Shown piece after piece: positions 6,023 to 23,645 of a stretch of 23,849 nucleotides of DNA (its first letter is position 1; each line of letters starts with the position of its first letter). A program made the translations under genes and the position numbers. The notes beneath the pieces are model-generated. The model had not been told where the DNA came from. It made no database searches and saw nothing but the letters and a program-made list of their open reading frames with translations. Source of the stretch: a virus; IMG/VR virus record IMGVR_UViG_3300030090_005839, positions 1-23,849 of that record. One strand, written 5' to 3'.

Positions 6023-6970
6023 ATGTCAATTTTAGTTACTGGTAGCGCTGGCTTTCTTGCCAGCCACCTAATTCCACTTTTAGAAAAGCAAGAGCATACC
6101 GTTCATGGTATCGATATTAAGAATAATAAAAAGGATGACCTGTCGAAACTTGCTGCTGCTACAAGAATTGCTAAAGGGTTAAAAGGCCCAGAACTACTAT
6201 TCCATTTAGCGGGTGTGGGAAGTGATTCAGAGCAAGGTGCACTTGCATCAGGGTCAGCAGAAAATAATTTATTGGCTTATGTCAATATATTGCAGGCTGG
6301 CATAGAGCATGGCTTAAAACATGTATGTCTTGTAAGTGATGTCGCAGCGTATGGGACAAGCACTCGCAGCAGAGATGAAAACGCTGCTTTATTCCCACAT
6401 AGTGTGTATGGTTGTATGAAGGCAGCGATGGAGCATGTGACCGCTGCTATCTGTGGTGACAATCGCATTACTTACACTATTTGTCGTGTACACGATATTT
6501 ATGGGCCTGGATTTAGCCTTTCTTCCCCAGGCACCACACAAATAAATGAATGGATACGACGGGTTTCTAAGGGGGAATCATTAATCGTCACTAATGAGGG
6601 CCGCCAACTAAGGCAACCGACTTATGTGACTGATGCGGTTACGGGTATTGCTAATATAGGGCTACACCCTTTAGCTAAAAATAAAGTTTTGAACATAGGG
6701 CATAACCATGCTTATAGGATGATAGATGTCGTGAGGTTAATTGGTTTGCACTGTGGTGGGAAGGGTTACGAACTAGAGTATGCAGAAGGGTCTCCCCGTG
6801 AGATAATTGATACACGAGTAATGCACAGTCAAGTAGAGCAAGTTTTTAAACACCATTGTCGAACCACCTTTAATGTGGGTTTAGAGCAAACCTGGGATTG
6901 GATAAAAGAGTTTCATGGGAATACTAATAACTCCGTCAAGCAAAGGACGGCACAAAAAGCCAAAGTCTGA
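6023..6970 (+). CDS. NAD-dependent sugar epimerase/dehydratase (extended SDR)
   Basis: The 315-aa protein is a full-length extended short-chain dehydrogenase. The Rossmann signature TGSAGFLA gives G7, G10 and A13, and D31 follows in HGID for the NAD ribose. Next come HLAG (61-64), catalytic Ser105 in LVSD, and the Tyr129-x3-Lys133 pair in SVYGCMK. RVHDIYGPG (155-163) matches the usual R-x-x-N/D-x-YGP motif. Such enzymes act in the cytoplasm on nucleotide sugars (4-epimerases, dehydratases, reductases); substrate cannot be read here. AGAGGAAG lies just upstream of the ATG. The gene follows a terminator and overlaps the next gene by 56 bp. A metabolic enzyme between capsid and tail genes is unusual; it may alter host surface sugar or supply sugars for virion glycosylation (inference). 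Confidence 0.9.
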   Translation: MSILVTGSAGFLASHLIPLLEKQEHTVHGIDIKNNKKDDLSKLAAATRIAKGLKGPELLFHLAGVGSDSEQGALASGSAENNLLAYVNILQAGIEHGLKHVCLVSDVAAYGTSTRSRDENAALFPHSVYGCMKAAMEHVTAAICGDNRITYTICRVHDIYGPGFSLSSPGTTQINEWIRRVSKGESLIVTNEGRQLRQPTYVTDAVTGIANIGLHPLAKNKVLNIGHNHAYRMIDVVRLIGLHCGGKGYELEYAEGSPREIIDTRVMHSQVEQVFKHHCRTTFNVGLEQTWDWIKEFHGNTNNSVKQRTAQKAKV

Positions 6971-11555: not shown

Positions 11556-12782
11556 ATGAGTACATCAACAGAAGGAATAGCACTTACAAAACCAGCAACA
11601 ACTGAGACTTATGATGTCTCTATTGTTAATGCAAACTCTGACCTTATAGCTAACTTATTGTTTGGTGGAGACAAGGGGTCAGATGCTAGTAGCGCAACAG
11701 CCCTTGTCATAGGTGACGGTAGTGTGTTTGACGTAACTGGGACAACAACTATTACTAGTATTGACGCTGCAAAGAACTATGCAGGTCGCGTAGTCCTGTT
11801 GCAATTTGATGGTGCGCTTACATTTACAAATAACACTACAACCTTAAAGCTACCTGGTAACGCAAATATAACTACCGCTGCTGGGGATCTAGCACTAATG
11901 GTTTCTGAAGGTAGTGATAACTGGCGTTGCGCTGTGTACACCAAGTATTCAGGCGCTGCTATAAAGATAGCGGATGAAAGCGTTGACTCGGATGCGTTTG
12001 TGGACGGTAGTATTGATGCAGCGCATATAGCTTCAAATGCAGTGACCACTGCGAAGATTAACGCAGATGCTGTAACGGGAGCTAAGATTGCCGATGATGC
12101 ATTAGACAGCGAGCATTACACGGATGGCTCAATTGATACAGCCCATCTTGCAGCCGATGCGGTCACAGGAGCCAAGATAGCTGACGACGCTCTTGACTCT
12201 GAGCACTACACTGATGGATCAATTGATACCGCACATATAGCAGACAACCAGGTCACGCTTGCGAAATTATCTGATGGGACACAAGGCGGCATCCTCTATT
12301 ACGCAAGCGGCGGTGCGCCAACAGAACTCTCCGCTGGAACTAGTGGTTATTTTCTTAAAACACAAGGTGGGTCAGCTAACCCTGTTTGGGCAGAAGTAAC
12401 CTCTATTTCACAGGCGAACCAATCTGCTATTGAAGGCGAAACAAATGAAGATACTTATATCCCGCCTGATCTGATAAAACATAGTCCTGGCGTTGCCAAG
12501 TTTTACGTAAAGTTTAATTATAGTGGAACTGTGCAGGGAACAGCTTATAATACAACTAGTGTTGCTGATAATGGTACAGGTGATTTAACGGTGACAATTG
12601 CAGATGACTTTAGTAGTGCCAACTGGGTAGCAGGATACACCACTGAAACTGCGTACACCAGATCGACAAATATTGAAAATGGTGGGCAAGCCGCTGGTAC
12701 ACTCCGTATAAGAACAACGGACAACAATGGAACTGCCTCCGATGGAAACTACGCCCATGTATTCGGGCTTGGAGATCAATAA
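11556..12782 (+). CDS. Tail fibre / receptor-binding protein with tandem repeats
   Basis: In this 408-aa protein, residues 1-130 form a beta-rich N-terminal domain, presumably for virion attachment. Residues about 140-235 hold a 30-aa repeat with two near-identical copies (core GAKIADDALDSEHYTDGSID) and degenerate units on both sides. Repeats of this TxAKIADxAxxSxH kind form triple-stranded fibre shafts in many phages. SAGTSGYFLKTQGG (about 265-278) is another common fibre motif. The last 120 residues probably form a host-contact tip. A good GTAGGAG lies 5 nt before the ATG. The gene ends in TAATG shared with the putative chaperone gene. Confidence 0.85.
   Translation: MSTSTEGIALTKPATTETYDVSIVNANSDLIANLLFGGDKGSDASSATALVIGDGSVFDVTGTTTITSIDAAKNYAGRVVLLQFDGALTFTNNTTTLKLPGNANITTAAGDLALMVSEGSDNWRCAVYTKYSGAAIKIADESVDSDAFVDGSIDAAHIASNAVTTAKINADAVTGAKIADDALDSEHYTDGSIDTAHLAADAVTGAKIADDALDSEHYTDGSIDTAHIADNQVTLAKLSDGTQGGILYYASGGAPTELSAGTSGYFLKTQGGSANPVWAEVTSISQANQSAIEGETNEDTYIPPDLIKHSPGVAKFYVKFNYSGTVQGTAYNTTSVADNGTGDLTVTIADDFSSANWVAGYTTETAYTRSTNIENGGQAAGTLRIRTTDNNGTASDGNYAHVFGLGDQ
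12063..12242 (+). repeat. Two tandem 90-bp repeat units in the fibre gene
   Basis: Units 12063-12152 and 12153-12242 encode 30 residues each, identical at 29. By my count 17 of the 29 conserved codons differ at silent positions. A degenerate unit (DGSIDAAHIA, then TAKINADAV) precedes them and a partial one (ADNQVTLAKL) follows. Confidence 0.9.
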
Positions 12783-22265: not shown

Positions 22266-22538
22266 TTAGGGCATTCCTACAGTAGCATCTTCGTGTAGTG
22301 CTAATAACATAACCAAACTGAAAACCCATCGAACAATTGGCTCGAATGCAATAGCTGAAAGTATGCACACTGTGATGCCGAACAAACCATATGCAAACCA
22401 GTAAAGTGTTCTCCAAATCTTGATAATTACGTATTCCGAGGTGCTAACAACCTCCACAGCTCTAAGAGGCGTTTCCGCCTTCAAAGTACCTATGTGGTGA
22501 ATCTTGAGCCTTCTCTTATTGCTGATTAGTTTTGGCAT
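22266..22538 (-). CDS. Small membrane protein with two hydrophobic segments
   Basis: In this 90-aa protein, residues 1-40 are soluble and basic (LISNKRRLKIHHIG). Two hydrophobic segments follow: about residues 45-62 (LYWFAYGLFGITVCILSA) and 67-80 (PIVRWVFSLVMLLA). AAAGG sits 7 nt before the ATG. The start overlaps the end of the methyltransferase frame by 23 bp but begins 3 bp after the stop of the alternative frame in the same gene. Function unknown. Confidence 0.65.
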   Translation of the reverse strand: MPKLISNKRRLKIHHIGTLKAETPLRAVEVVSTSEYVIIKIWRTLYWFAYGLFGITVCILSAIAFEPIVRWVFSLVMLLALHEDATVGMP

Positions 22539-23313
22539 TATTTAGCCTTTCTCTAAGTTCTTGCCATGCCTTTGCTGCCACTGCTGGTACGACTGCGTTT
22601 CCAAGGGCTGCAATCCTGTCCACCCTATGGGGAATCCCATTAGCCATTCGACAAATTGCGGGTTCAAGGCTCGCTTCGATGCGTAAAACTTTTGCCCAAG
22701 CATCGGCGTCCTTGGGGCTTGGCGGCCAAGTAGGCAGTTCGTCGGCTCCTTTAGTGACGGATTGAACCCGTCCTTGTGATCTCGGCTTGTCGGTGTTGCC
22801 CATAGCTTTGTCGGGACTGGTGTGGGCATATATGAAAAGTCGCTCCCGCTTATGTGGCGAGCCAACCTCCTGCGCCGAATAGATTCCTGCCTCAACCGTG
22901 TAGCCCATTGCGCAAAGGTCTCGCCATACTGATTCAAATCCGATCCGAAGATGGTTGGCCACGTTTTCGAAGAAGCAGAATCTGGGTTGTACTTCTCCGA
23001 TGATTCGCCGAATATCAGGCCAGAGGTGTCTGGGGTCATCTTCCCCTTTCCGACTGCCTGCGCTGGAAAATGGCTGGCACGGGTATCCACCAGTGATGCA
23101 ATCCACGACGCCACGCCACGGCTTGCCATTGAAGGTTTTAACATCGCTCCATATTGGAGCATCGTCGAGATAACCTTCTTGAATACGGGCGAGCGTCGCA
23201 GCGACGGGGAAGGCCTCTCTCTCCACGTAACAGCATGTGCGAGCGTTTGGCTCAGCGAGTCGCAACCCGAGTTCGATGCCTCCGATCCCACTACATAGAG
23301 CCAAGACATTCAT
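22516..23313 (-). CDS. DNA (cytosine-5) methyltransferase
   Basis: In this 265-aa enzyme, ordered C5-MTase motifs are visible: motif I LALCSGIGGIELGL (4-17), motif IV GYPCQPFS with catalytic Cys79, motif VI FENV (115-118, Glu116), motif VIII QEVGSPHKRERLF (148-160), a short target-recognition region (about 160-225), then motif X-like ALGNAVVPAVAA. It would transfer methyl groups from S-adenosylmethionine to cytosines in a specific sequence, probably to protect phage DNA; no nuclease partner is seen. I chose ATG 23313 because it overlaps the previous TGA (ATGA) and matches the family start; a second in-frame ATG 10 codons earlier has no spaced ribosome site. The region looks richer in G+C than its neighbours. 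A second frame overlaps nearly the whole gene. Confidence 0.93.
   Translation of the reverse strand: MNVLALCSGIGGIELGLRLAEPNARTCCYVEREAFPVAATLARIQEGYLDDAPIWSDVKTFNGKPWRGVVDCITGGYPCQPFSSAGSRKGEDDPRHLWPDIRRIIGEVQPRFCFFENVANHLRIGFESVWRDLCAMGYTVEAGIYSAQEVGSPHKRERLFIYAHTSPDKAMGNTDKPRSQGRVQSVTKGADELPTWPPSPKDADAWAKVLRIEASLEPAICRMANGIPHRVDRIAALGNAVVPAVAAKAWQELRERLNNAKTNQQ
22542..23309 (-). CDS. Possible overprinted 255-aa protein within the methyltransferase gene
   Basis: An alternative minus-strand frame opens at ATG 23309, 4 bp after the methyltransferase ATG, and stays open for 255 codons to TAA at 22544-22542. Its stop is 3 bp before the ATG of the next gene, a cleaner junction than the methyltransferase offers. 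The product contains WATPTSRDHKDG and NPQFVEWLMGFPIGWTGL, followed by PLETQSYQQWQQRH, patterns I recall in proteins annotated in phages as separate genes. In the two frames the last parts align: ALGNAVVPAVAA opposite PLETQSYQQWQQRH. It could be a real overlapping gene, or an alternative translation that databases carry along with the enzyme. I cannot tell which without expression or codon-constraint data. Confidence 0.4.
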   Translation of the reverse strand: MSWLYVVGSEASNSGCDSLSQTLAHAVTWRERPSPSLRRSPVFKKVISTMLQYGAMLKPSMASRGVASWIASLVDTRASHFPAQAVGKGKMTPDTSGLIFGESSEKYNPDSASSKTWPTIFGSDLNQYGETFAQWATRLRQESIRRRRLARHISGSDFSYMPTPVPTKLWATPTSRDHKDGFNPSLKEPTNCLLGRQAPRTPMLGQKFYASKRALNPQFVEWLMGFPIGWTGLQPLETQSYQQWQQRHGKNLEKG

Positions 23314-23645
23314 TTTGCCTTCGATCGGAAACTGTCCAGCCATACCTCACGGTCGTATGGTGTATGGATTGTTCCTAGGTAATTCTCCCAATCATTCCCA
23401 GTGCAATTATCTGGGCATGACATAGAGCAATCATGCTCTATGTCCTTTCCCAATAGCACTCTGTCTACTATCCAATTAGGAGCCAGATCCCCCCATTTAT
23501 CCACACAATCCTTGGCCTGCTCAAAGGTGAGTGCCTCTAAATTGGTAGGAGGTAAATACACTGCTGCGTTTGTTCTCTCCTTCTTTCTCATCAATTCTAA
23601 AATGCGTTTTGTTAGTTGCTTTGCGTTTTTAATGTCGCCGTCCAT
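23310..23645 (-). CDS. Hypothetical acidic/basic mixed protein
   Basis: In this 111-aa protein, the first 25 residues are a basic helix (KNAKQLTKRILELMRKKER). The middle is acidic with Trp (CVDKWGDLAPNWIVDRVLL), and the Cys-containing part CSMSCPDNC (about 73-81) could bind a metal. AGGAG lies at good distance before the ATG, which overlaps the upstream gene by 1 bp (TAATG). It ends in an ATGA junction with the methyltransferase. The CSMSC region is encoded by a perfect 11-bp inverted repeat (23419-23444). Function unknown. Confidence 0.65.
   Translation of the reverse strand: MDGDIKNAKQLTKRILELMRKKERTNAAVYLPPTNLEALTFEQAKDCVDKWGDLAPNWIVDRVLLGKDIEHDCSMSCPDNCTGNDWENYLGTIHTPYDREVWLDSFRSKAK
23419..23444. 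repeat. Perfect 11-bp inverted repeat inside a gene
   Basis: GACATAGAGCA (23419-23429) and TGCTCTATGTC (23434-23444) are exact inverse copies with a 4-bp centre ATCA. It lies inside the hypothetical gene upstream of the methyltransferase and could form a strong hairpin in its mRNA or be a protein-binding site. Confidence 0.75.

Follow-up and report, generated by a model that had tools for sequence, protein, structure and literature searches.

A phage C5-cytosine methyltransferase gene with a second, selected reading frame proposed to encode its target-recognition polypeptide

In a stretch of viral DNA of 23,849 nt (hereafter, the window), a cytosine methyltransferase gene is open in two frames, and the sequence makes it very probable that these are overlapping genes for two subunits of one C5-cytosine methyltransferase, started together at the paired start codons ATGAATG. 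We refer to the enzyme frame as alpha and to the second frame, which is +1 relative to alpha, as beta. The locus contains the following features:

23310..23645, minus strand: upstream gene without a family match; its stop codon overlaps the alpha start.
22516..23313, minus strand: alpha, C5-cytosine methyltransferase, catalytic polypeptide (PF00145, M.HhaI match, phrog_363).
23307..23313, minus strand: ATGAATG, paired start codons 4 bp apart.
22542..23309, minus strand: beta, a 255-codon ORF in the +1 frame of alpha; proposed target-recognition and motif IX polypeptide.
23266..23301, minus strand: alpha motif I, ALCSGIGGIELG (homologue alignment).
23065..23091, minus strand: alpha motif IV with the catalytic Cys, GGYPCQPFS (P88, C89 and Q90 invariant in the alignment).
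22960..22971, minus strand: alpha motif VI, FENV (E126 invariant in the alignment).
22834..22863, minus strand: alpha motif VIII, GSPHKRERLF (G161, R166 and R168 invariant; the M.HhaI similarity stops here).
22668..22847, minus strand: proposed TRD (VIII-to-IX region), read in beta (codon-position flip to the beta frame; module family in divergent genes).
Within 22668-22802, minus strand: module WATPTSRDHKDGFNPSLKEPTNCLLGRQAPRT inside the proposed TRD (family common to many other genes).
22620..22667, minus strand: beta motif IX, LNPQFVEWLMGFPIGW (beta-frame constraint in this bin; IX-X of relatives aligns to DRM methyltransferases).
22585..22602, minus strand: alpha motif X, GNAVVP (N249 and V252 invariant; alpha-frame constraint in this bin).
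22266..22538, minus strand: downstream gene without a family match; overlaps the alpha end by 23 bp.

The alpha ATG (23313-23311) and the beta ATG (23309-23307) both lie within GGCAAAATGAATG, where the TGA of the upstream gene (23312-23310) overlaps the former and directly precedes the latter. Beta ends 3 bp before the ATG of the downstream gene (22538), and alpha runs on to 22516. These coordinates bear out the first-pass annotation, which had described two ATGs 4 bp apart with both frames open, the second for 255 codons, a second ORF ending 3 bp before the next gene and an enzyme overlapping that same gene by 23 bp. The alpha ORF is open back to 23343 (full open span 23343..22516, minus strand); comparison with homologues suggests that its start is 23313, residue M11 of the longer ORF, and not 23343.

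In alpha, only the first half matched PF00145 (E 5.5e-32), the match stopping at position 166 of 324; alpha also matched phrog_363. Its similarity to the M.HhaI and M.HaeIII structures likewise extended only up to motif VIII and was followed by GNAVVP, which is motif X. The C5-methyltransferase motifs I, IV (PCQ), VI (ENV), VIII and X were all found in alpha; motif IX and the TRD were not on the same chain, motif IX being read in the +1 frame as LNPQFVEWLMGFP. The initial statement that the first frame has all the main motifs is thus correct for I, IV, VI, VIII and X but not for motif IX, which belongs to the second frame. Given these motif placements, the canonical order I-VIII, TRD, IX, X is kept in the DNA, with the TRD-IX piece one base off.

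The openness of beta exceeds what the enzyme sequence would produce by chance. None of 500 synonymous-codon shuffles of the enzyme gave an open run as long as 255 codons. The second frame of the window gene had 2 stops, both outside the beta ORF, versus 6.9 expected from the shuffles, and the third frame was unremarkable (14 stops versus 14.8 expected). Because circularity was to be avoided, 80 further viral loci (the best 80 of the scan) were picked and fetched with alpha alone. A beta match was present in every full-length gene sampled in this way (74 of 74, window included), and these genes had 1.6 second-frame stops per gene versus 6.6 expected, with an ordinary third frame. Second-frame stops in relatives with an intact enzyme, proposed at the outset as the observation to look for, were absent: across motifs I-VIII in 76 alpha-selected genes (11,660 codons), 0 beta-frame stops were counted versus 187 expected, and 591 third-frame stops versus 525 expected. 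The final stop test of the TRD region made no demand for a continuous alpha ORF and kept the beta-picked loci apart; across 151 beta-selected loci it gave 25 alpha-frame stops versus 435 expected, and the alpha frame was stop-free through the TRD in 145 of the 151, versus 19.7 expected. Canonical single-chain methyltransferases, used as a control, had 495 stops in the +1 frame versus 517 expected; these controls came mainly from bacterial genomes, because the viral-contig scans yielded none and three loci. The start codon of beta is itself conserved, since 88 of 90 alphas starting NTG-Asn used AAT, the codon that creates the beta ATG, compared with 75 of 233 later Asn codons in alpha (p 1e-30, a value that is too strong because the sequences are related; part of the set was also picked via beta). 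Together, these sequence tests confirm beta as a real, selected and presumably translated protein.

The two frames are constrained over different parts of the gene. Homologous genes were aligned as nucleotides, and their differences were assigned to positions 1/2/3 of the alpha codon (the third beta position coincides with alpha position 1); the rates use many related pairs, with non-independent counts, and it is their pattern, not a p-value, that serves as evidence. In the catalytic region the rates (.207/.124/.425) followed an ordinary alpha pattern. The VIII-to-IX (TRD) region showed the pattern of a beta-frame gene (.310/.154/.117;.342/.128/.149 in the window's own clade), as did the motif IX bin, the ten codons right after the TRD (.331/.063/.095), and the alpha pattern returned in the motif X bins (.143/.105/.352 and.105/.114/.279). 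The TRD region of the canonical single-chain control had rates of.175/.105/.470, without a flip. Over motifs I-VIII, little amino-acid constraint specific to beta was seen in its N-terminal half. The codon-position check proposed in the first-pass annotation therefore did detect second-frame constraint, over the TRD and motif IX, and the rates show that both frames are kept by selection, each constrained over its own motifs.

The first-pass annotation had placed motifs of the second frame in annotated phage proteins, and they were indeed found in such proteins and in PHROG families. The best conserved beta stretch, LNPxxVEWLMGxPxGWT, lines up without gaps with motif IX of M.HhaI. The IX-X piece of beta from a relative (L119) aligned to plant DRM methyltransferases over LEPDEVEMLLGFPKNHTRGGGISRTDRYKSLGN with an E value of 5e-4, and that of another (L102) aligned at the same DRM place more weakly (E 0.55). 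Beta had no family match in Pfam or NCBIfam, and a PDB profile search with it returned a chance match only. Modelled alone with AlphaFold2, beta gave low confidence (mean pLDDT 58.9 and 56.9), and a Foldseek search with the model gave no meaningful fold match; such a low-confidence fold would fit, short of proof, a subunit that needs its partner. The sequence evidence points to beta as the target-recognition and motif IX subunit.

The region upstream of motif IX in beta has a modular composition. Modules starting with WxTP, counted by regular expression, numbered 1-9 in 212 of 213 betas, and in 120 pairs of modules the identity was 65% or higher, the genes concerned being less than 50% identical in the catalytic region. 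The window beta has one or two modules by the same expression, and the family of its main module, WATPTSRDHKDGFNPSLKEPTNCLLGRQAPRT, was found in many other genes. These patterns of sequence identity suggest that the WxTP modules are exchangeable target specificities.

The arrangement is found in hundreds of sampled phage and bacterial loci, in most of which it is unannotated. From at least 527 viral-contig loci confirmed by beta, the best 80 were sampled, and in each of these a methyltransferase overlapped beta at the same +1 offset; every scan retained its best 80 loci, so the counts describe the sample. In relatives from phage records the methyltransferase and beta ORFs also overlap at +1, usually with the same ATGAATG start. 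The bacterial loci (best 80 of the scan) showed the +1 overlap in 78 of 80. One of the two exceptions, L193, is a fragment at a contig edge. It alone has a beta but no alpha, and no standalone beta was found; the other exception, L238, was considered as a true in-frame beta and rejected, the alpha N-terminus lying in the beta frame in what looks like an indel. The protein search that had been suggested to ask whether matches of the second-frame product always overlap methyltransferase genes thus gave an affirmative answer, at +1, bar the contig-edge fragment and the indel-like case. A beta match was obtained in 6 of 185 gammaproteobacterial genomes drawn, and one of these (L317) was rejected as a chance match and not a real beta; on this draw, the spread is wide but the arrangement is uncommon in host genomes. 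Literature searches in PubMed Central turned up nothing that describes such an arrangement for phages.

We propose that ribosomes would start at both ATGs, 4 bp apart, to make two chains. Alpha (frame 0) would provide motifs I-VIII, for SAM binding and catalysis, together with a terminal motif X; beta (+1) would provide the VIII-to-IX region with the TRD and motif IX. The two chains would assemble into one enzyme, whose sequence specificity beta would set through exchangeable WxTP modules, and the phage would likely use it for self-methylation against host restriction. True overprinting with a partner of the enzyme, one of the options offered in the first-pass annotation, is supported by the stop counts, the codon positions and the +1 overlap of the matches.

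The same motif layout could be read as a single chain produced through two programmed frameshifts, with frame 0 up to motif VIII, +1 through TRD-IX and frame 0 again for X. Such a product would explain why the canonical motif order is kept in the DNA and why each frame is constrained over its own segment only, and it would suit four relatives described below (the L028 group), in which the alpha frame is not open through the TRD, yet motif X is kept. However, it needs neither an open beta frame over motifs I-VIII (0 versus 187 expected stops) nor an open alpha frame through the TRD (25 versus 435), nor a conserved beta ATG, and M.EcoHK31I is biochemically two polypeptides (PMC3404938); we consider frameshifting unlikely.

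Alternatively, beta could be a genuine protein that does something else, for instance regulating or inhibiting the enzyme, as its N-terminal half, which has no known domain, might allow. This we regard as very unlikely, given that beta carries what alpha lacks (motif IX and the TRD) at the corresponding position along the DNA; the earlier suggestion of a regulator is unsupported on the same ground, beta carrying the TRD region and motif IX. That the second frame is untranslated, open and similar between genes as a by-product of enzyme composition and conservation, is the least probable account and can be set aside almost entirely. Part of the second-frame sequence is indeed dictated by conserved motifs of the enzyme, but the by-product effect is absent in the synonymous shuffles and in the third frame, canonical enzymes are without an open +1 frame, and over the TRD and motif IX the coding pattern is that of beta and not that of alpha. 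On the shuffles, the third frame and the canonical controls, the view of beta as the enzyme's shadow was rejected.

Several relatives divide the motifs differently. In L102:1960-3030 and L119:600-1660, beta runs in frame through motif X; this placement of TRD, IX and X in beta is close to the partition of M.AquI. Several alpha-frame stops interrupt the TRD region in L028:1254-2790, L186:2050-3480, L190:2289-3640 and L197:428-1880, and one such stop each was found in L187 and L200. In the first four, motif X is still in the alpha frame and beta is fully open; their motif X may come from a frameshift or a re-start, or may be kept for another reason.

Compared with the single-chain enzymes M.HhaI and M.HaeIII (PF00145), alpha shares motifs I, IV, VI, VIII and X, but the TRD and motif IX lie in a different frame from the catalytic motifs. 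The multispecific C5-methyltransferases of Bacillus phages carry TRD arrays. As in those enzymes, exchangeable modules, several of them, lie between motifs VIII and IX in the present class; here, the module array is in an overlapping frame. In M.EcoHK31I the gene for the small subunit overlaps that for the large subunit in another frame. The window differs from M.EcoHK31I in the placement of beta, whose start lies 4 bp behind that of alpha and which covers almost all of the gene. The motif partition of M.EcoHK31I (YGGCCR), as given in the background to a research paper (PMC3404938), is a large subunit with motifs I-VIII and X and a predicted TRD, and a small subunit with motif IX only. The window resembles it in having a large polypeptide with I-VIII and X and, if both chains are produced as we infer, a smaller one with motif IX; it differs in that the TRD is constrained in the beta frame and is absent from the large polypeptide, where the same source places the predicted TRD of M.EcoHK31I. 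The locus would thus work like M.EcoHK31I, and with beta-frame constraint over its TRD region it is described as M.EcoHK31I-like by motif partition and not as a proven member. M.AquI has a natural split near the variable region, resembling this locus, and its small subunit contains part of that region and IX-X (PMC3404938); the window, unlike M.AquI, has motif X in alpha and not in the smaller polypeptide. The two-polypeptide split with motif IX in a small subunit is already known, and what is new here is the TRD region in the overlapping frame. The ShiLan case is a mobile out-of-frame HNH insertion in mycobacteriophage methylases (PMC11855218), which likewise puts an overlapping frame within the gene of a phage methylase; that paper, on an insertion in an actinobacteriophage methylase, makes no mention of a subunit or of target recognition. 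Unlike this insertion, beta spans the whole gene and occurs in essentially all relatives, and it has no Pfam match to an HNH endonuclease.

We consider it likely that these loci form a large class of C5-methyltransferases, widespread among phages and bacteria, in which one and the same DNA encodes catalysis in one frame and target choice in another. Specificity modules would then evolve and shuffle in their own frame and be read as filler in the other, and in most of these loci the annotated enzyme would be incomplete by itself. To our knowledge, long overlaps between genes on the same strand are few in phages and bacteria. The class would offer a strong model for two frames sharing one DNA, because it is found in hundreds of sampled loci and the constraint switches frames along the gene. 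If this is true, many annotated phage cytosine methyltransferases, cloned as the annotated frame alone, would be inactive or without specificity, and target-deciding modules may have been missed so far.

Public records often name one frame only: beta in L001, L003 and L004, and alpha in L002, L005, L006 and L007. Both frames are annotated in Paenibacillus phage Bloom (L249), and beta is sometimes named DNA-cytosine methyltransferase. The suspicion of a widespread mis-annotated frame therefore holds in so far as public records differ in which of the two frames they name, but the second frame is itself selected. The Mycobacterium phage Zerg methylase (L251:1013-1726) contains an open, unannotated beta frame with motif IX. 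Elsewhere in the window, positions 11556-12782 (plus strand) encode a tail-fibre-like protein with internal repeats (DGSIDTAHI...AKIADDALDSEHYT), for which a Pfam search gave no match, and an NAD-dependent epimerase/dehydratase gene (PF01370, E 4e-34) lies at 6023-6970 (plus strand) in the phage structural region.
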